64,000 nucleotides of DNA from Alphaproteobacteria bacterium (GTDB lineage Bacteria > Pseudomonadota > Alphaproteobacteria > Micavibrionales > UBA2020). The position numbers and the translations under genes were made by a program. How positions within the stretch are numbered: position 1 is the stretch's first letter; the number at the start of each line of letters is the position of its first letter. The notes beneath the pieces are model-generated. The model was not told the origin of the DNA and searched no databases. It saw only the letters and a list, made by a program, of their open reading frames with translations. Shown here piece after piece: positions 25,374-57,200 of this stretch. Location: assembly GCA_016124645.1 (NCBI GenBank), contig WGNE01000010.1, forward strand, positions 55,878 to 119,877, given 5' to 3'.

Positions 25374-25772
25374 ATGTCCAAACCCTCCATGAACGATTTC
25401 ATCAAGGCGCTGCGCAGCGACGCTTCCCTCAGCGACGATTTCGCGAAAGCCGTCAGCGCGCTGGCGAAGAAATCGGGCTTCGACGTGACCGAGGAAGACG
25501 TCAGGAACTTCGTCGATGAGCAACCCGTCCGCCGCCCCCTTCCCGGCCACGGCGGCGCGACCACGATGGCCCTCGGCGAAGAAGGCAAGCCGCCGCGCTT
25601 TGACAACGACGACATGCCCAGCGTCACCCTTGCCATCGGCGAGGAAGACGGCCGCAAGAAAGACCCCAAGCCGCAGCCGCCGAAAGACGACGACTGGCGC
25701 CGCCGCGTCACCACGCTGGCCATGGGCGAGGAAGGCAAGCGTCCGCAGCCGCCGAAAGGCCCGGGCAAGTAA
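25374..25772 (+). CDS. Putative graspetide (omega-ester RiPP) precursor with Nif11-like leader
   Basis: 132 residues from the ATG at 25374, 8 bp after AAGGA; the track start is 38 codons too far upstream. Residues 6-48 fit a Nif11-like leader (FIKALRSDASLSDDF, then LAKKSGFDVTEEDV). Three copies of a core motif follow: TTMALGEE (63-70), VTLAIGEE (84-91, preceded by Ser) and TTLAMGEE (113-120), separated by Lys/Pro/Asp-rich spacers. From memory this is the TTxxxxEE pattern of plesiocin-type graspetides, where Thr side chains are esterified to Glu. The ATP-grasp gene starts 6 bp after its stop. The role is inferred from motif plus partner. Confidence 0.85.
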   Translation: MSKPSMNDFIKALRSDASLSDDFAKAVSALAKKSGFDVTEEDVRNFVDEQPVRRPLPGHGGATTMALGEEGKPPRFDNDDMPSVTLAIGEEDGRKKDPKPQPPKDDDWRRRVTTLAMGEEGKRPQPPKGPGK

Positions 25773-25778
25773 GCCGCC

Positions 25779-26660
25779 ATGCTGCTCATCGTCGGCGACA
25801 GCCGTGACCACAACATCCGCAGGCTCGAGGATGCCGCGCAATGGCGCGGCGCGGAATATCGCGTCATCCATACCGACGGCGACCCCGCGCCCGCCGTCAG
25901 CTGGCGGCCCGGCAGCGACGCGCTGACCGTGAACGGCGAAACCTTCCGCGCGAAAGACACCGCGCTGTTCCTGCGCTACGACGTGTTCAGCGAGCAGGCG
26001 CAGGAAACGAAGGCCGCGCTGTTCGACGCCTTCGCCGGCTGGGCGCAGGCGAACCGCGGCGTGGGCATGCTCAACCGCGGCAACGAGACGCTGGAGGTCA
26101 ACAAGCCGCGCGCGCTGGCGCTGGCGAAGGAATGCGGCTTCGAGATTCCCGAGACATGGATCACCGCCGACTTCAACCGCTTCGCCGACAAGGAAGCCTA
26201 TATCGCCAAGCCCGTTGCGGGCGGCGCCTTCACGCGCAAGCTTTCGGACATGCCGGAGACTGCCGAGAAGCCCTATATCGTGCAGGAAAAGCTGGACTAC
26301 CCGGAAATGCGGCTGTTTCGCGTGGGCGGGCATTACTTCGCCTTCCGCATCGAAAGCGGCGCGATAGATTACCGCGCGACGGATGATTTCACGCTGGTGG
26401 AAGTCGAGCCGCCCAAGGCGCTGGTGACCGCCATGGAAAAGCTGAGCGACCGGCTGGGGCTGGACTACGCGGCGGCGGACCTGAAGACCGATCCGAAAAC
26501 CGGCGCGCTGCGCTTTCTTGAGATCAATTCCATGCCCATGTTCACGGGCTATGACGACGCGGCGCAGGGCCGCCTGTCTGACGCGCTGTTCCTGACTTTG
26601 AAGAAGCTTGCCGCCGGCGGGAAAAAGCCGGGGCCGGGATTCAAAGCGGCATCTCCATGA
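25779..26660 (+). CDS. ATP-grasp ligase, MvdD/PsnB-like graspetide-modifying enzyme
   Basis: 293 residues. An N-terminal pre-ATP-grasp region (MLLIVGDSRD, FLRYDVF near 64-70) is followed by the ATP-grasp core: NKPRALALAKE (108-118), IAKPVAGGAF (142-151), IVQEKL (167-172), EMRLFRVGGHYFAF (176-189), and the metal-binding end FLEINSMPMF (246-255). The DYR triad at 197-199 matches the DxR motif that marks peptide macrolactone/lactam ligases of the microviridin type. It would use ATP to activate Glu side chains of the precursor. The 3' end overlaps the convergent GNAT gene by 20 bp. Confidence 0.88.
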   Translation: MLLIVGDSRDHNIRRLEDAAQWRGAEYRVIHTDGDPAPAVSWRPGSDALTVNGETFRAKDTALFLRYDVFSEQAQETKAALFDAFAGWAQANRGVGMLNRGNETLEVNKPRALALAKECGFEIPETWITADFNRFADKEAYIAKPVAGGAFTRKLSDMPETAEKPYIVQEKLDYPEMRLFRVGGHYFAFRIESGAIDYRATDDFTLVEVEPPKALVTAMEKLSDRLGLDYAAADLKTDPKTGALRFLEINSMPMFTGYDDAAQGRLSDALFLTLKKLAAGGKKPGPGFKAASP

Positions 26661-27162
26661 ACACCGTATCGAAGCTCTGGCCCGCGACGTCGAAGGTCTG
26701 GCGCTTCGTTTCGAGGAAGCCGAGACGCTTGTAAAGGCCGATGGCAGCCTGCTGCGTCACGGTCACGTGCAGCTCCAGAAAATCGTATTTGAACATCTTC
26801 GCATCGTCGATGAGCGCATAGGCCATGCGCTTGCCCATCCCCTGCCCTTGGTATTCGGGCAGCAGGTGCAGGTTGCAAAGCTCCACGCGCACGGGGTCCT
26901 TGGGCTTCAACCCGCCCATGCCGATCATTTTGCCGTCATGCGTGAACAGCCCCAGCATCTCGCCGCCGGTGGTCTGGTATTCGCGCGCGCGTTCGGCGAT
27001 GTCGCCGTGGTGCGTCGGGTTCTGGATGAAGCCGTCGGGGTTGAGTTCCAGCGATTTGGCGTAAAGCGCGCGCAGCTGCGCGTCGTCATCCGGCCCCACC
27101 GGGCGCAGGACCGGGCTGAGGCGCGGGTCGTTTTGAAGCGGGTTTTCGCTGCTGCTGGCCAT
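26641..27162 (-). CDS. GNAT-family N-acetyltransferase
   Basis: 173 residues. The GNAT fold starts at LRPVGPDDDAQLRALYAKSL. Motif A is visible: VELCNLHLLPEYQGQGMGK, with the QxxGxG acetyl-CoA loop, then LELHVTVTQQAAIGLYKRLGF. The acceptor is unknown. The start lies inside the upstream M20 gene, giving a 77-bp same-strand overlap, so it is the third cistron of the nicotianamine-synthase-like operon. Its 3' end overlaps the convergent ATP-grasp gene. Confidence 0.85.
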   Translation of the reverse strand: MASSSENPLQNDPRLSPVLRPVGPDDDAQLRALYAKSLELNPDGFIQNPTHHGDIAERAREYQTTGGEMLGLFTHDGKMIGMGGLKPKDPVRVELCNLHLLPEYQGQGMGKRMAYALIDDAKMFKYDFLELHVTVTQQAAIGLYKRLGFLETKRQTFDVAGQSFDTVFMEMPL

Positions 27163-28522
27163 AGTTTTTCACCGTTTCCTTGAAGATTTCACGAAGGTTG
27201 ACGAGGTCGTCAAGCGCGGCGCGCTCGTCAATCTGGTGCATGCCGCCGCGGGAAAGATAATCTTCGGGCTTGTGCTTTTCGCAGGCGATGCCGCCGCGCT
27301 CGGGCAGGCCCAGCTCGATGATTTCGGCCTTCGGGAAGACCTGCGCGGCGAAGCGCCCGTCGGTCGTGCCGCCGCTGCCGTCCAGTTCGGCGTCCTTGCC
27401 CAGCACGGTCTTCACCGCCTTCTGCGCGGAAAGCGCGAGGTCGGCGGGTTCGCTGTAATACGGCACCGATGCCGTGTCCTTGTTTGCGGTCACGGTGATG
27501 TTCTTCAGCAAGGGCGCGTCCGGGTGGTTCTTCGCCCAGTCGGGCGGATTGGCGAGCGCGTCCTTGATCCATTTCTCGAGCCCGTCCGGCGTCTGGTCGG
27601 GCGTGAAGCGGATGTTCCACATCATCTCCGCCTTGCCGGGGATGATGGCGCTGGCGTTGAAGTCGCCGGATTTCAGCGCGACGGCCTCGAAATTCGTGTT
27701 CGGGAAGTGCTCGTTCCCGTCCTTCCATTCGTGGCTGTTCAGGATGGCGATAGCAAGCGCGAGGGCGCGGTTCGGATTCTCGAAAAGTTCCTGATAGGCC
27801 GCGTGGCCCTGCACGCCCGCGACGTTGAAGGTGCCGACAAGGCTGCCGCGGCGGCCGATTTTGATATGGCTGCCAAGTTCGTCCTGCGAGCTGGGCTCGC
27901 CCACGATGAAGGCGTCGGGCGCCTCGCCTTTTTGCTTGAGCCATTGCAGGACTTTGTTGGTGCCGTTGACGGCGGCCCATTCCTCGTCTGTCGTCAGGAT
28001 CATGCTGATCTTGACCTTGCCGCCGGCTTTGAGTTCTTTTTGCAGGTCTTCGACGGCGGTGATGAAGGCGGCGACGCTGCCCTTCATGTCGGTCACGCCG
28101 CGGCCGTGCAGATAGCCGTCCTTGATCGTGCCGCTGAACGGGTCTTGCGTCCACTTGGCGGCATCGCCCGGCGGCACCACGTCGAGGTGGCCGATGTAGC
28201 AGATGTGCCTGACGGGTTCGCCGTCGTCATCGTTTGCGGGGCCGAGGTTCCATTCCAGATAGACGTTTTCGACCGGGTAATCCCATTTCGGGTGGTCGCC
28301 TTCGAATTCCATGCGGGTCGCGGTCGCGCCGGATTTCTCCGCCGCCTCGACGGCAAGGTCGATGCTGCGGCGCGATTCAGGCTGGTCTTCCGCCTTCAGC
28401 GCGGTCACGCTGGCCACGCGCACCAGTTCCTGCGCCAGTTTCACCGTCGCGTCCTGCGCGTGGCGGTCATGGTCGTGCCGGGCGTGGTCGTGCTTCGCGG
28501 TTTTTTTGTCAGGCTGCGGCAT
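27086..28522 (-). CDS. M20 zinc metallohydrolase, DapE/ArgE type
   Basis: 478 residues. Metal-binding and catalytic segments are clear: YIGHLDVVPPGD, GRGVTDMKGSVAAF, the catalytic TTDEEW, the later GEPSS and a C-terminal metal-ligand region. The dimerisation domain includes GRRGSLVGTFNVAGVQGHAAY. DapE removes succinate in diaminopimelate synthesis and ArgE removes acetate from ornithine; DapE-like features dominate. The N-terminus has five His in eleven residues (HDHARHDHDRH), unusual for the family, and the C-terminal 25 residues are a Pro/Lys tail. It overlaps the preceding NAS-like gene by 14 bp, so it may act in the same pathway. Confidence 0.88.
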   Translation of the reverse strand: MPQPDKKTAKHDHARHDHDRHAQDATVKLAQELVRVASVTALKAEDQPESRRSIDLAVEAAEKSGATATRMEFEGDHPKWDYPVENVYLEWNLGPANDDDGEPVRHICYIGHLDVVPPGDAAKWTQDPFSGTIKDGYLHGRGVTDMKGSVAAFITAVEDLQKELKAGGKVKISMILTTDEEWAAVNGTNKVLQWLKQKGEAPDAFIVGEPSSQDELGSHIKIGRRGSLVGTFNVAGVQGHAAYQELFENPNRALALAIAILNSHEWKDGNEHFPNTNFEAVALKSGDFNASAIIPGKAEMMWNIRFTPDQTPDGLEKWIKDALANPPDWAKNHPDAPLLKNITVTANKDTASVPYYSEPADLALSAQKAVKTVLGKDAELDGSGGTTDGRFAAQVFPKAEIIELGLPERGGIACEKHKPEDYLSRGGMHQIDERAALDDLVNLREIFKETVKNYGQQQRKPASKRPAPQPGPAPGGAG

Positions 28523-29366
28523 TCATCGTATCCGGTTCGTAATAGCGGGTGGTGTTGATGCGGCGCGGGTCCATCGCCGTCTTAGCGATTTGGCGGAAGC
28601 CGGAGGTCGGCAGCTCCGCCGCTTTATACAGGAACTGGTAGGCGCCCTCGGAATCGCGCACCATGAGCGCGCCCTGATGGTGGCGGCGCAGCCGGCTATA
28701 GACCTGCTCCCTGCCCTGCAGCAGGCTGGCGCAGATCACCAGCTCGTTGTCGCGCGGGTCGTATTGCAGCGCGTCCATACAGCGGACATCGACGCGGTCG
28801 GACAGGTCGAGCTTTTGGCCCAGCTGGCGGGCGAGGTCGCAGGCCTCGCTGTCGTAATCGACGCAGACGATCTGCGCGTCCGGCACGCTGTAGGCCAGCA
28901 GGAAAGCGGTGATGGGCAGCGCGCCCGCGCCAAGGAAGCTGATGGTCGAAAAGCTGCGGTTTTCGAACAGCTCTTTTTCCGCGCGGCAGAGCTCGCGGTA
29001 TTCGGGGTAGTACCAGAATTCGTCAAGGTGGCAGTCCGCGCGGGAGATCAGGTTGCGTGCCCAGAATTTCTCCATCTCGCATTCCGCCTGCCCGCAAAGG
29101 CCGGGCAGGGTTTCGCGCTCCTCCGACAGCTCGGGGGTCTGCAGCAGGTAGCCCGAAACATCCGGCGACTGGCAGCGCGTCAGGGTGCGCACAAGGTGGG
29201 TGAGCGAGCGGTTCACGCGCTCGTTCTGCGGCGAGAGGTTTTGCTCTGCCGACAGCAGCGCGTAGCTTTCACGAATGGCCTGTTCGGCTTCTTTGCGGAG
29301 TTCCATGGGCGTCACACTCTTGAGTACCGTTTGGGGCGTTAACATATTGTCAGAAAAATCTGTCAT
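28509..29366 (-). CDS. Nicotianamine synthase / CntL-like aminobutanoyl transferase
   Basis: 285 residues. The central Rossmann part fits nicotianamine synthases: HLDEFWYYPEYRELCRAEKE, then ISFLGAGALPITAFLLA (about 142-158), IVCVDYDSEACDLARQL, the active-site-like NELVICASLLQGRE, RDSEGAYQFLY, and MDPRRINTTRYY near the end. NAS and CntL enzymes transfer the aminobutanoyl part of SAM to amino acids and make nicotianamine, staphylopine or pseudopaline precursors. No opine dehydrogenase (CntM) or racemase (CntK) gene is nearby. It is first in an overlapping operon with the M20 and GNAT genes. The substrate is inferred. Confidence 0.78.
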   Translation of the reverse strand: MTDFSDNMLTPQTVLKSVTPMELRKEAEQAIRESYALLSAEQNLSPQNERVNRSLTHLVRTLTRCQSPDVSGYLLQTPELSEERETLPGLCGQAECEMEKFWARNLISRADCHLDEFWYYPEYRELCRAEKELFENRSFSTISFLGAGALPITAFLLAYSVPDAQIVCVDYDSEACDLARQLGQKLDLSDRVDVRCMDALQYDPRDNELVICASLLQGREQVYSRLRRHHQGALMVRDSEGAYQFLYKAAELPTSGFRQIAKTAMDPRRINTTRYYEPDTMNAAA

Positions 29367-29531: not shown

Positions 29532-29561
29532 TTGATATTGCAAATCATTCTCATTTGTAAA
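29532..29561 (-). promoter_or_regulatory. Promoter with overlapping Fur-box-like palindrome for the NAS-like operon
   Basis: On the minus strand, TTTACA (29556-29561) and TATCAA (29532-29537) are spaced 18 bp apart, 5 of 6 and 4 of 6 matches to a housekeeping promoter. The spacer holds CAAATCATTCTCATTTG on the plus strand (29541-29557), a near-palindrome that looks like the iron repressor Fur box. A repressor there would block polymerase, so the operon is expected to be induced by metal starvation. The match is by eye; Zur or a related repressor is possible. Confidence 0.65.
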
Positions 29562-29759: not shown

Positions 29760-30725
29760 ATGCATAAACGCAAACTCGGAAACTCGGGCCTCGAGGTCAT
29801 GCCCGTCTGCTTCGGCGGCAACGTCTTCGGCTGGACGATCGACGAGGCGACGTCCTTCACCATCCTCGACGCCTTCGTCGGCGAAGGGCTGGATTTCATC
29901 GACACGGCGGACGTCTATTCCCGCTGGATCGAGGGCAACAAGGGCGGCGAGTCCGAAACCATCCTCGGCAACTGGTTCGCGAAAAGCGGCAAGCGCAAGG
30001 ACGTCGTGCTGGCCACCAAGGTCGGCATGGAGACCGAGCTTGGCACGGGGCTGCGCAAGGAGCACATCATGGCCTCGGTCGAGGCCTCGCTGAAGCGGCT
30101 GCAAACGGATTACATCGACCTCTACCAGTCCCACAAGGACGACGAGAACGCGCCGATGGAAGAAACGCTGGCGGCCTACCAGCAGCTCATCAAGGACGGC
30201 AAGGTGCGCGCCATCGGCGCTTCCAACTTTTCGGCCGAGCGCCTTGCGAAGTCGCTGGAAGTCAGCAAGGAGCACGGGTTGCCCCGCTACGAAAGCCTGC
30301 AGCCCGGCTATAACCTTTACGACCGCGAGGGCTACGAAAAGGCGCTCGAGCCGCTGTGCCGCAAGGAAAACATCGGCGTCATCAGCTATTACTCCCTCGC
30401 CCGCGGCTTCCTTTCCGGCAAGTACCGGTCGGAAGCGGACCTGAACAAGAGCCCGCGCGGCAAGTCGGTCGGGGAGAATTACCTGAACGAGCGCGGCTTC
30501 GCCATCCTCGAGGCGCTCGACAACGTGGCGGGCAACCTGAACGCCACGCCCGCGCAGGTCGCCCTCGCCTGGCTCATCGCCCGGCCCGGCATCACCGCCC
30601 CCATCGTCTCGGCCACCAGCCTCGAACAGCTCAAAGACATCACGCATTCCGTGAAGATCACCCTGAGCGACGCGGATATCGCCGAGCTCGACATGGCCAG
30701 CGCGTGGCAGAAAAAAGCGGCGTAA
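29760..30725 (+). CDS. Aldo/keto reductase
   Basis: 321 residues of an NADPH-dependent TIM-barrel reductase. The catalytic Asp and Tyr are in DFIDTADVYS, the Lys in VVLATKVGM, and the His in IDLYQSHKDD. GASNFSAERL and the cofactor-binding LAWLIARPGITAPIVSAT follow. It resembles YajO/Tas-type general aldehyde reductases; the substrate is unknown. A good AGGAG site precedes the ATG. It is divergent from the NAS-like operon and could share control elements with it. Confidence 0.92.
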   Translation: MHKRKLGNSGLEVMPVCFGGNVFGWTIDEATSFTILDAFVGEGLDFIDTADVYSRWIEGNKGGESETILGNWFAKSGKRKDVVLATKVGMETELGTGLRKEHIMASVEASLKRLQTDYIDLYQSHKDDENAPMEETLAAYQQLIKDGKVRAIGASNFSAERLAKSLEVSKEHGLPRYESLQPGYNLYDREGYEKALEPLCRKENIGVISYYSLARGFLSGKYRSEADLNKSPRGKSVGENYLNERGFAILEALDNVAGNLNATPAQVALAWLIARPGITAPIVSATSLEQLKDITHSVKITLSDADIAELDMASAWQKKAA

Positions 30726-30875: not shown

Positions 30876-31754
30876 TTACTTGCCCGGCGGTTTCGGTTTC
30901 TGCGGGTCCGCGGCGGGGCGCGGCTTCATGCCCAGCTTGTCGTAGGGGACTTTCATGGCGTAATCGCCGAGCTTCAGCGGCAGGTCGGCGTCCGGTTCCT
31001 GCCCGATGGTCGGGATGACGATTGAGTAGTCATGCGGCACGCGGCGGTAAGCACGCTTGGGGATGCCGAAGCCGTAGCCGATATGCCCCTCGCCCGCGAT
31101 GACGACGAGTTTCTTGTCCGCGTTGTCGGGGTTGGAGAGGAAGTCGGCGACCGTCTCGGCCATCGCCTCGTCCCAGAGCACCATCATCTTGTAACGTCCC
31201 TCGGCCGCTTCGGGCGGAATGCCGGGGCCGCTGAAGAACGGCAGGTAGCGGCCGCGGTGGTAAGGGTCGTCCATGTCGAGTTCCGGCACCTCGGGGCTCG
31301 TCCCGCCGGAGCGCACGACGGCCTCGATCTCCTTCGTCGGCTTCAGCCCGACGAGGGGGATGGAATTGTCCTGAATGAAGTCCAGCACCGGCTGATAAGC
31401 CTCGCGCCAGTCGGGGGTCCATTGTTCGTCGAACAGGGCGTTCAGCTCGTCCTTGGTCATCTTGCCCTGCTCCAGCTTGTCCAGCGCGGGCTGGGCGGAG
31501 CGGCGGAACATCTCCATGCCCACGGCGACCTTGCCGGGGTTTTTCGCGAAAAGCTCCTCGATGATCTCCAGCTGGGCCTGATGCGCGGCGATATTGTCGT
31601 GCAGCTCGCTGACGTAGATGACGCGCGCGCTTGAAATCGCATCCATCATCTGCTCCTTCGTCACTTCCGTGCCGGTTTGCAGGTGAACGATGTCACCGTC
31701 CTTCATCTTGTCGATGTTCGTATAGGGCGCGGACGCATTGAATTTTTTGCGCAT
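30876..31754 (-). CDS. ChaN/Tiki-superfamily protein (haem-binding uptake type)
   Basis: 292 residues from ATG 31754 (or 304 from 31790). ChaN-like motifs are present: VIYVSELHDNIAAHQAQLEI, VGMEMFRR, and VVIAGEGHIGYGFGIPKR. Family members bind haem or act as putative metalloproteases; the family is often lipoprotein-anchored, but here I see no lipobox or clear signal peptide. The C-terminus is Pro/Lys-rich. The track ORF to 32174 overlaps mgtE and is not real in its N-terminal part. It lies 54 to 90 bp downstream of mgtE and may be co-transcribed. Confidence 0.82.
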   Translation of the reverse strand: MRKKFNASAPYTNIDKMKDGDIVHLQTGTEVTKEQMMDAISSARVIYVSELHDNIAAHQAQLEIIEELFAKNPGKVAVGMEMFRRSAQPALDKLEQGKMTKDELNALFDEQWTPDWREAYQPVLDFIQDNSIPLVGLKPTKEIEAVVRSGGTSPEVPELDMDDPYHRGRYLPFFSGPGIPPEAAEGRYKMMVLWDEAMAETVADFLSNPDNADKKLVVIAGEGHIGYGFGIPKRAYRRVPHDYSIVIPTIGQEPDADLPLKLGDYAMKVPYDKLGMKPRPAADPQKPKPPGK

Positions 31755-31843
31755 GGGACTCACGGCGAAATTCCTTCTCAAAAACGGCATTATAAAAAGA
31801 GGTGATGTAAAATACCCGCCTCTCCCGCCTTTGGCAAGGGGGG

Positions 31844-33202
31844 CTAAAGCAACGTCCCCTTCAGCAGCATACTGGCCACGCTGAAATAGATGACCAGCCC
31901 CGTCACGTCCACCAGCGTGGCGACGAAGGGGGCGGAGGCGATGGCCGGATCGACGCCGACGCGGCGCAGCAGCATGGGCAGCATGGAGCCCATGAGCGAA
32001 CCCCAGAGGACGATGCCCACCAGCGTGCCGCCCACGGCCAGCGCGATGAGCGGGTAATGCGGCCCGTAAAGCGTCGCGTGCCCGGGCCAGAGGTAGATGC
32101 GGATGATGCCGACCACGCCGAGGATGAGCCCGAGCAGCAGGCCCGACAGGCACTCCCTCAGGAACACCCGCCACCAGTCGCGCAGGCGGATCTCGCCCAG
32201 CGCCATGGCGCGGATGACCAGCGTGGTCGCCTGCGAGCCCGAGTTGCCGCCCGATGACATGATGAGCGGCACGAAAAGCGCGAGCACCACGGCCTTGGCG
32301 ATTTCGTTCTGGTAGTGGCCCATGGCGGTGGCGGTGAACATCTCGCCGATGAACAGGGCGAGCAGCCAGCCCGCGCGCTTTTTCACCATGTCGAGAATGC
32401 TGATCTTGAAATACGGCTCGTCGAAGGCCTCCATGCCGCCCATTTTCTGGATGTCCTCGGTCGCCTCCTCCTCCACGATCTGGACGATGTCATCGACGGT
32501 GACGATGCCCTTCATGTGGAACTCGTCGTCCACCACGGGCATGACGCGGTATTCGCGGTGACCGAAGATGCGGGCGATTTCCTCCTGGTCCTGATCCTCG
32601 CGGATGAAGGCCATGTCGTCGCCCGTGGTCATGATGTCGCGCACCAGCGCGAAGGGATCGGCGCTGAACAGGTCGCGCAGCGAGACGGTGCCGAGCAGCT
32701 TCTGGTTCTGGTCCAGCACATAGGCGTAGTAAATCGTTTCCACCTGCTGGCGGGTCTGGGCGCGCAGGTAGCGCAGCGCCTCCTCCACCGTGGCGTCGGG
32801 GCGCAGGCGCGCGAAACGCGGGCTCATCAACCCGCCGGCCTCGTCCTCGTGATAGGCGAGCAGCCCCTGCACTTCCATGCGCGTGGGCGTGTCCAGAAGG
32901 TCGAGCGCGGCGGGGCGTTCTTCCTCCTCCAGCTCCTGAATCAGGTCGGCGGCGTCGTCGGGCGGCAGGATGCGAATCCACGACTTGCGGCCCAGCGGGG
33001 GCAGCAGCATGAAAAGCTCGGCCTGGTCATAGGGCAGGATGCGCAGGAAAAGCTCTTCGGCCGTGCGGCGGTCGAGCGCGCGGAAAATCTGGCCGTGCTC
33101 CTCGCCGGGCATGGAGCCCCATTCGGCCAGCAGCTTGTCGAGCCGGCGCTCAGTGAGCGCGACGTGGGTCTTGCGGAAATCGTCCTTGAGCGTTTTCATC
33201 AT
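31844..33202 (-). CDS. mgtE: Magnesium transporter MgtE
   Basis: 452 residues. The N-terminal MgtE domain (ILPPDDAADLIQELEEEERPAALDLL) is followed by a pair of CBS domains (IMTTGDDMAFI, VTVDDIVQIVEEEATED) that sense magnesium. Five membrane helices form the channel, including the conserved SSGGNSGSQATTLVIRAMALGE segment. It imports Mg2+ when cytosolic levels fall. The tRNA-Pro gene lies just upstream. A second Mg transporter, CorA, is 700 bp further on. Confidence 0.95.
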   Translation of the reverse strand: MMKTLKDDFRKTHVALTERRLDKLLAEWGSMPGEEHGQIFRALDRRTAEELFLRILPYDQAELFMLLPPLGRKSWIRILPPDDAADLIQELEEEERPAALDLLDTPTRMEVQGLLAYHEDEAGGLMSPRFARLRPDATVEEALRYLRAQTRQQVETIYYAYVLDQNQKLLGTVSLRDLFSADPFALVRDIMTTGDDMAFIREDQDQEEIARIFGHREYRVMPVVDDEFHMKGIVTVDDIVQIVEEEATEDIQKMGGMEAFDEPYFKISILDMVKKRAGWLLALFIGEMFTATAMGHYQNEIAKAVVLALFVPLIMSSGGNSGSQATTLVIRAMALGEIRLRDWWRVFLRECLSGLLLGLILGVVGIIRIYLWPGHATLYGPHYPLIALAVGGTLVGIVLWGSLMGSMLPMLLRRVGVDPAIASAPFVATLVDVTGLVIYFSVASMLLKGTLL

Positions 33203-54277: not shown

Positions 54278-57200
54278 CGGCTACCCGCTTTGCCCTTGGT
54301 GAGCAGTTCTTCTTCGATCTGCAGTTCATGCCTGCCGGATGATTTTTTCCACAGCTTGCGCAGCCGGTCGGCCACGGCCTTCAGGCGTTTGCGCGCCAGC
54401 TTCTCGCCCTCGCCCGTCTCGACGTAGCCGAGGCGCAGGATGGAGGGCGTCTCTTTCAGCTTCGCGGGCAGCGCGTCGAATTGTTTCGCGTAACCCGGCT
54501 TCAGCTCGGTCGAGCCCGGCAGGAAAGCGTCGTCGCGCATGTTGACCCGCACCACGCGGCGCAGGGCCGCGCCGAAGTTCAGCTTCACCATCTTGCCGCG
54601 CGTGGCGCGGACGATGCGCGGGTTTTCCGTGGTGACGCGGAAGCCGGTGGGCAGCGTGCGCGTGTCCAGCTTCATGATGAAGTTGCTGCCGCGCTCGGAA
54701 TCGGGTATCGCGGCGCAGGCGATGTGGAAGCGGCCATCGGCGTCCGTCGTGACCAGCAGGCCGTTGACCGTCGCCACGCGCACGGCGGGAATGCCGGGCT
54801 CGCCCTCGTCCTCGTAGCCGTTGGCGTTCTTGTCGTTGAAGACCTTGCCGATGATGTCGGTGCAGTCGAACAGCGGGTCGGGCGTCACGTTCACCGTCGC
54901 CGTGGCCGTATTGGAAACGGCGGTGGTCACGATGTTGTTGATGGCCTGCGCCGCGTTCACGTATTTGCCCGGCTGCACGCCCGCGCCCACCACCAGCAGC
55001 ATTTTCAGCGTGCGCGTCGCGCCGATGGCGAGGGTCAGGTTCGGCACCGTCAGCGTGCGGCCCGAGACGGTGGGCGTGACGGCCACGCCGTCCAGCGTCG
55101 CGCTGCCGGTCTTGTACTTGAAGCCGGGCGGCAGCGTATCCACGATGTCGATGTTGCTGAGCGCGGCGGAAAGCGTGTTATGCGCCGTAATCGTATAAGG
55201 CACCAGCTGGCCCGTCGTCACGTTGACCAGCGGCGTCGTCTTGGTCAGCTGCACCGCGCCGCCCAGAATGGGGTCGAGCGGGATGTGGTTGTTGACCACG
55301 TCGCCCGAGGTCGCGGGGTCGATGGTGAAGCTCATGTAATATTGCGTCGTCGCCTGGTTCGCGGGCGCGAGCGCGGCGGTGCTGGCCGGGCAGGTCGTCG
55401 GGTCGTGTATCGTGGCGCCGGAGGTCGGCGCGGGCGCGGCGGACTGGATCAGCGCGGGGTCGGGCGCCGCGCCCACGGCCAGCGTGTTGTTGCACACCGC
55501 AATGAAAGTCGAAGGCACGGGCAGGTAGCCGCCGGGATAGGTGGAAACGGTGATGGTATAGGTGCCCGAAGGCGCCGCCGGGGTCAGCAGGAACTGGTAG
55601 GAACCGTCCGCCGGCGTCGTCACCGTCGCGGAGCCGCCGACGAGCTGGGTCGCGGGGTTGAAGCCCGCGGGGCCCGTCAGGGTGAGCTGCGCGCCCTGCA
55701 CCGGCGCGCGGGTGATCGCGTCATAGACCACGCCCGAGGGGTCGAGCGGCAGGCTCTGCTGGATGATGTTGTCGCCCGCCAGCAGGTTCATGCTGGGCAG
55801 CGTGCCGTTCGCGGACGACAAATCCGCCCCCGCCGGGTTGCCGGTATTCGTGCCGCTGTTGACGGTGGTGCTGCCCGTATCGCGCACGCCGTTGGTGGGT
55901 GTGATGCCCTGCTCGTTCGTGACCGCGTTGCCGAAGACGATGCCGGTCGTGGGCTCGACGAAGAGCAATTGATAACCCGAGCCCGGCGAGATGCCGGTGA
56001 AACTGTAGGCGCCGCTGGCGTCGGTCGTCGTGGTGTCAACGGTGACGCCGGAAAGCTTCAGCTGCACTTCCCATCCCTGCACCAGTTCCTCGCCGCTGTC
56101 GATCTGGCGGTTGTGGTTGGTGTCGCGCCAGACCGTGCCGCTGACGCTGGCCGTGGTGGTGATGGCGACGGTGTCGCTGGCCGAATTGTTGCCGCCGAAG
56201 CCGGGCGGCTCCCCGCCGCCGGAAATGGTGACGTTGTTGACCAGCAGCATGCCCGCATAGCCCGAACCGACCGTGACCGGCAGGGTGATGACGTTGCCCG
56301 TGCCGCTGGCGGAGATGACGTCGGTCGAGGTGCAGGTGGAAGTGCTGTCGCCCGCCACGCCCGTGCAGGTCCAGCCCGTGCCGGTGGGGGTGGACTTCAG
56401 CGTCATGCCCGTCGGCAGCGTATCGACCACCGTGATGGCGCCCGAGGTATCCTGCGCGCCGACGTTGGAGGGCGTGATGGTGAAATAGCCGGTGCTCGAC
56501 CCCTCCCCGAAGCTGGCGGGCGTGTGGGTCTTGGCGATGGTCAGGTCGGGCGCGGCGCCCGGCACCTCGGCGAAGAGGTTGGCGGTGGAAACGCTGCCCG
56601 CGGTCGTCAGGTCGATGTTCGCGATGCGGCTGGTCGTGCCCGTGGGGTTGCTTGGGGTGCCGCCCGCGCTGCCCGCCGTCGTGGTGCCGTTAGTGGTGCC
56701 CGTCGGCTGGGCGGGCTGGTCGATGGTATAGGTGCCGCTGGGCAGTGCGGTGAAGGTGAAATCGCCGTTCGTATCGGTCGTCGTCGTAGCGCTGACGGGG
56801 TTGCTGCTGACGTCCGTGCCGGTCAGGTTGACGGTCTGGCCGGAAATGCCATAGTCGGAGCCGTTCTTGGTCCCGTCGTTGGCGTAATCGAGGAAGACCG
56901 TGCCCGAAAGCGTGTGACCGTTCGGCAGCTCGGCGAAGTTATTGCCCGATGCCGTGGTGTCGGGCGGCAGGATGATGGCGCTGATCTGGCTGGGCACCGT
57001 CGTCGTGCCGGTCACGGAACCCGCCGTGCCGCCGTTGGGCACGCTGCCCGCCACCGTCAGCCCGTTGGAGGTATTGGCGGGCTGCGTCGGCTCGGTCACC
57101 GTATAGGTGCCGGGCTGCAGGCTGGCGAAGCTGTAGCTGCCGTCGCTGGCGGTGGTGGTCGATGTGCTGACGGCATTGCTGTTCACGTCCGTACCGGTCA

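Follow-up and report, generated by a model that had tools for sequence, protein, structure and literature searches.

Characterized bacterial systems in which an enzyme of the nicotianamine synthase (NAS) fold produces a metallophore pair CntL with the opine dehydrogenase CntM and have been linked chiefly to zinc (PMC7438024), and in a survey based on CntM only zincophores that require this enzyme could be found (PMC7438024). The 64,000-nucleotide stretch analyzed here (the window; positions 55,878 to 119,877 of contig WGNE01000010.1, assembly GCA_016124645.1) belongs to a Micavibrio-related alphaproteobacterium, that is, a relative of the predatory Micavibrio, whose genome assembly comprises 2.85 Mb in 71 contigs and is 91% complete. 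It harbors an operon of three minus-strand genes, encoding a NAS-family enzyme, an M20 amidohydrolase and a GNAT acetyltransferase, which resembles the clusters specifying staphylopine, pseudopaline, yersinopine and bacillopaline in its NAS-fold enzyme, in the predicted transfer of aminobutyrate from S-adenosylmethionine (SAM) onto an amine and in its probable metal-responsive control. Unlike those clusters, the locus has no adjacent CntM or dedicated transporters, encodes a NAS rather than a CntL enzyme, and combines it with a DapE-type M20 protein and a GNAT protein behind a Fur-box-like operator. We propose, at about even confidence, that this operon specifies an iron-responsive, opine dehydrogenase-independent pathway to a nicotianamine-like chelator which undergoes reversible N-acylation. 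No description of a NAS-M20-GNAT operon was found in the open-licence literature searched, an earlier description elsewhere being possible, and the same literature yielded nothing relevant on nicotianamine in combination with a desuccinylase or an ATP-grasp enzyme.

The open reading frame coordinates agree exactly with a preliminary description of this DNA, which had reported overlaps of 14 and 77 bp between the three genes. Gene order and both overlaps are retained in nine of the ten related genomes that encode the NAS (55-75% protein identity), with overlap lengths of 11-17 bp and 38-68 bp, and because they recur in this manner they represent more than chance. The opine dehydrogenase that had been described as missing was found neither in the operon nor in its neighborhood, the M20 amidohydrolase and the GNAT being the constant partners instead, and the staphylopine dehydrogenase model PF10100 returned no match in 18 genomes of the family, including that of the window, in a search run without a positive control. 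One or both partners also adjoin NAS in five further lineages. RI_95 displays the order NAS-M20-GNAT; in Azospirillum CAG:239 the NAS gene is divergent from a set encoding a Fur-family regulator, M20 and GNAT, and in SZUA-500 it is divergent from M20. In G338, whose NAS is plant-like, the gene faces M20-GNAT-M20, this GNAT being only marginally related, while in SP2989 NAS and GNAT are adjacent in the absence of M20. Among 385 alphaproteobacterial genomes, NAS was present in 11 and the operon-type M20 in 3, in each case adjacent to NAS (3/3), the chance of M20 always lying beside NAS being 1.7e-5. The assignment of the enzyme families and the conservation of the operon are solid.

The product of the first gene is predicted to be an aminobutyrate transferase of the NAS type, based on its match to PF03059, its modeled fold, its catalytic residues, its position in the NAS tree and its low score as CntL. 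The protein, in which both the NAS pattern FLGAGALPITAF and the INTTRYY terminus were found as previously noted, matches PF03059 across residues 29 to 267 (E=1e-24; 87.8 bits against a cut-off of 27.1), and a Foldseek search with its AlphaFold model (pLDDT 91.8) returned the archaeal, thermonicotianamine-associated MtNAS (3fpe) as the best Protein Data Bank match (TM 0.78/0.84; root mean square deviation 2.6), followed by CntL. When some 50 relatives are aligned together with MtNAS and the plant enzyme AtNAS1, E99 pairs with the catalytic Glu (MtNAS E81, AtNAS1 E77) and Y123 with the catalytic Tyr (MtNAS Y107, AtNAS1 Y106), both being invariant across the relatives; the pairing of E97 with MtNAS E81, obtained from an ungapped hidden Markov model alignment, was dropped, as the Glu column of the wider alignment is invariant and pairs with E99. 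The AtNAS1 sequence used was verified at the positions named by PMC10248798 only. The roles of these residues are those reported for NAS enzymes (PMC10248798 and PMC10491745). MtNAS, although the closest solved structure, shares only 18% identity with the window NAS, has Gly in place of E95 and occurs in a different gene context. Plant and fungal NAS belong to the same family, and the additional Glu of AtNAS1, E73, is likewise conserved in the window NAS, where it corresponds to E95; the VGMD loop, in contrast, is absent from the window protein, which sits in a different clade. Both E73 and the loop are required in AtNAS1 (PMC10248798).

Within the tree, the window NAS belongs to a clade of 14 members (100/99) placed among NAS enzymes, and CntL-type enzymes split off at 100/100, at a point where long branches also meet. 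Its score with the NCBIfam CntL model NF033601 is 17.1 bits, against a cut-off of 350, and membership of CntL is ruled out by this score together with the tree position. The former label "NAS/CntL-like" is consequently retained for its first half, gene 1 encoding a genuine NAS-family enzyme with the catalytic Glu and Tyr in place, and abandoned for its second, since the protein groups with NAS and not with CntL. The preliminary description does not touch on the DapE origin of the M20, the Fur-box-like site, the operon version that includes an iron permease or the occurrence of the partners in further lineages. Separately, bacterial NAS proteins whose loop at the VGMD position is of the plant type were observed at L169/L170 (G338, G507), L104, L110, L120, L133 and L137, in actinobacteria, Pyxidicoccus and two alphaproteobacteria; they cluster with AtNAS1 and may be true nicotianamine producers.

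The second gene product matches PF01546 (1.6e-34), and its closest solved and annotated relative is the succinyl-diaminopimelate desuccinylase DapE, with which it has its zinc ligands in common. It scores 332 bits with the DapE model PRK13009 (cut-off 284) and 271 bits with TIGR01246 (cut-off 362), compared to 521 and 438 bits, respectively, for the canonical DapE, which is encoded as a dapD-dapE pair on a separate contig (G000:C25) and whose presence rules out the operon M20 as the cell's own DapE. Operon-type M20 proteins form a single clade (97/99) apart from the DapEs of the same genomes. The zinc ligands and catalytic Glu are conserved (H112, D145, E180/E181, E209 and H429), whereas the Asn in the NVIP motif of DapE, a substrate contact, is replaced and extra loops are present, among them an LPERGG...GGMHQ insertion next to the final zinc ligand. 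Judged by these features, the operon-type proteins are a DapE-derived, NAS-linked subfamily distinct from canonical DapE, and because the zinc ligands are kept while the pocket is changed, gene 2 is predicted to encode a functional amidohydrolase that acts on a new substrate.

The third product matches PF00583 (1.9e-16) and retains the acetyl-CoA-binding QGxGxG motif, its closest solved relative being HP0935, an amino acid/protein acetyltransferase of Helicobacter pylori (8iym; E=7e-17), which is not NAS linked in its describing paper. As HP0935 acetylates free amino acids (PMC12273574), a small-molecule primary amine is a plausible target by analogy; since, in addition, the M20 protein resembles an active DapE-type deacylase, the previously suggested acetyl protection and release by M20 would be chemically reasonable. 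In the pathway that we propose, the NAS would transfer one or more aminobutyrate units from SAM onto a starter amine, which may belong to an amino acid or to a further aminobutyrate unit, and the GNAT would N-acylate a free amine of the product or of a precursor. Hydrolysis of the amide by the DapE-derived M20 would then render the acyl group a removable cap, which would set metal affinity or location and whose removal would allow metal release. We infer this product and its acylation cycle, as well as iron as the metal and the starter, acyl group and direction of the cycle.

A different use of the same two enzymes constitutes the main rival, namely that they serve synthesis: the GNAT would protect one amine, the NAS would extend the other, and the M20 would deprotect, leaving the final product unacylated. 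The DapE ancestry of the M20 agrees with such a route, acyl protection being the usual setting in which DapE and ArgE operate in lysine and arginine synthesis, as does the overlap of all three genes, which implies joint expression. NAS enzymes, however, act on the starters known for them (SAM-derived aminobutyrate, Glu and His; PMC10248798) without requiring protection, and the NAS of SP2989 adjoins a GNAT gene where M20 is lacking, for which reasons we hold synthetic protection to be somewhat unlikely.

Control by iron is suggested by the placement of Fur-box-like sites. An exact-site scan of the window and twenty related loci (302 kb) placed all 16 exact box sites (16/16) no more than 300 bp upstream of either NAS itself or the gene heading its operon, and CAG:239 (with one mismatch), SZUA-500 and G186 also carry the box. 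The pattern TGANAATNATTNNCA is present at four places in the assembly, one of which is 5' of feoA, and a search of the host genome found a single Fur-family gene. Behind the box in two relatives, G004 and G014, lies an operon of five genes encoding a cupredoxin, an FTR1 iron permease with two REXXE motifs, NAS, M20 and GNAT. It is, therefore, probable from these sequence features that the operon is iron controlled via Fur, which under low iron would leave the promoter. Because the same box type precedes the cupredoxin and FTR1 genes ahead of NAS in the two relatives, the chelator would probably receive or buffer iron entering the cytosol, for example through FTR1-type permeases, or may be secreted as a metallophore. 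In plants, nicotianamine handles iron. Two perfect palindromic Fur-box-like sites were also observed elsewhere in the host genome, at G000:C21:15085 (L152) and G000:C45:14323 (L154), near a gene for a small membrane protein and one for a probable membrane permease.

Several observations weigh against an iron-responsive acylation pathway. The window site is an imperfect palindrome (12/14 informative positions), and some boxes are syntenic copies and not independent cases, within a set that includes separate NAS lineages. No box was found upstream of NAS in RI_95 or G017, and no transporter gene lies within the window's operon. G017, the tenth relative, encodes NAS without M20 or GNAT, so that the partners are not strictly needed, and the seven family members lacking NAS, which also lack M20, all come from a single genus and represent a single event, NAS/M20 co-occurrence at family level thereby amounting to one phylogenetic split. 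The RI_95 operon, moreover, follows a gene for an MntP-type manganese exporter, and the metal may differ between hosts.

This last gene lends weight to the view that zinc, manganese or a broad spectrum of metals is handled and that the Fur-type sites are recognized by a regulator with a different specificity, as does the mostly zinc-tied nature of known bacterial NAS-type metallophores (PMC7438024). The occurrence of the same box type before feoA, the presence of FTR1 inside the operon in two relatives and the detection of only one Fur-family gene in the host argue against it, and we regard it as unlikely. The solitary NAS of G017, in turn, would fit a free nicotianamine- or thermonicotianamine-like molecule as final chelator, the GNAT and M20 treating side products such as azetidine-2-carboxylate or excess aminobutyrate. 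E95, as the counterpart of the required AtNAS1 E73, favors this as well, yet the equally required VGMD loop is absent, HP0935 left proline, which like azetidine-2-carboxylate is a cyclic secondary amine, unacetylated (PMC12273574), and the tight linkage of M20 would be unexplained; a free chelator of this kind is considered slightly less likely again. In G017 itself (L060 7172-9282), genes for an ABC transporter ATPase and a permease-like protein lie directly downstream of NAS, and its NAS may serve another metal.

Beyond the acylation reading proposed for the window, the M20/GNAT pair stands among several NAS variants free of CntM, because elsewhere an ATP-grasp or methyltransferase gene adjoins NAS. 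In G136, G119, G134 and G186, a NAS gene with an upstream Fur-box-like site adjoins an ATP-grasp-like ligase gene (L066 5123-6004, L067 5454-6644, L068 5976-7055 and L174 2412-3281); the L066 and L174 ligases resemble DcsG, well below its cut-off, and that of L068 was recognized by sequence resemblance only, with no Pfam match. In G109 and G358, a small methyltransferase-like gene is located directly upstream of NAS (L070 8017-9566 and L172 593-3522). G358 carries a second NAS-like gene after this pair, and tandem NAS matches were also observed in G205 and G324. The C-terminal half of the FTR1 protein from the five-gene operon (residues 275-507; L053 8734-10263) matches, at 34% identity, a stretch that lies 5' of the methyltransferase and NAS genes in L070 (10177-10875), a locus from another family, and may be a further shared component. 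At somewhat less than even confidence, we tentatively suggest that a widespread, unrecognized class of Fur-regulated NAS pathways exists in Alphaproteobacteria without opine dehydrogenase, with branches in which the NAS product would be reversibly N-acylated by GNAT/M20, linked to a further unit by an ATP-grasp ligase (Micavibrionales, G186) or paired with a small methyltransferase.

The features of the locus and its surroundings are collected in Table 1.

Table 1. Predicted features of the NAS operon and adjacent genes (window coordinates)
Feature	Position	Strand	Basis
NAS-family 3-amino-3-carboxypropyl (aminobutyrate) transferase, 285 aa	28509-29366	-	PF03059, fold model, catalytic residues
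DapE-derived M20 amidohydrolase, 478 aa, His-rich N-terminus	27086-28522	-	PF01546, zinc ligands, own clade
GNAT N-acetyltransferase, 173 aa	26641-27162	-	PF00583, HP0935 as closest solved relative
Fur-box-like operator TGAGAATGATTTGCA	29539-29553	-	187 bp 5' of NAS start; conserved before relatives' NAS operons
Aldo/keto reductase (AKR), divergent from NAS	29760-30725	+	PF00248 (3.8e-73)
Nif11-leader peptide and ATP-grasp peptide maturase, likely graspetide cluster	25374-26660	+	PF07862 (3e-6); TIGR04187 (9e-16)
ChaN-like haem-binding protein gene	30876-32174	-	PF04187 (2e-41)

The 10 family genomes that carry the NAS-M20 pair also carry an AKR orthologue; its conservation beside NAS is confined to this family, as NAS-M20 loci outside the family lack it, and the gene is possibly a co-regulated neighbor. 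Its divergent position and its distribution within the family would also accommodate a mugineic acid-like route, in which the AKR acts after NAS in the manner of the deoxymugineic acid synthase of grasses. We consider this very improbable, as the window AKR resembles other AKR subfamilies and is not shared by the NAS-M20 loci of other lineages, and as the sole nearby aminotransferase is not conserved; a phytosiderophore route via the AKR and this class V aminotransferase was rejected on the same grounds. The ChaN-like gene just beyond the AKR, which is possibly iron related, was not detected at the corresponding position in relatives. Convergent with the operon, and overlapping the 3' end of the GNAT gene by 20 bp, lies the likely graspetide cluster, whose Nif11-leader peptide carries three repeats (TTMALGEE, VTLAIGEE and TTLAMGEE) ahead of the ATP-grasp maturase, a core which we take to recall the TTxxxxEE motif of plesiocin. 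Its genes were rejected as part of the NAS system, as the relatives examined did not show them next to NAS.

The DapE-derived M20 subfamily matches lysine biosynthesis models and would be annotated accordingly, while it probably serves NAS products instead. If the proposed pathway is correct, a CntM-independent and probably Fur-controlled NAS module would place bacterial nicotianamine-type chemistry within iron homeostasis, as in plants, and would explain why genome mining based on CntM misses such clusters. Should the wider class also prove real, it would represent a source of new iron-handling, nicotianamine-like molecules in bacteria.

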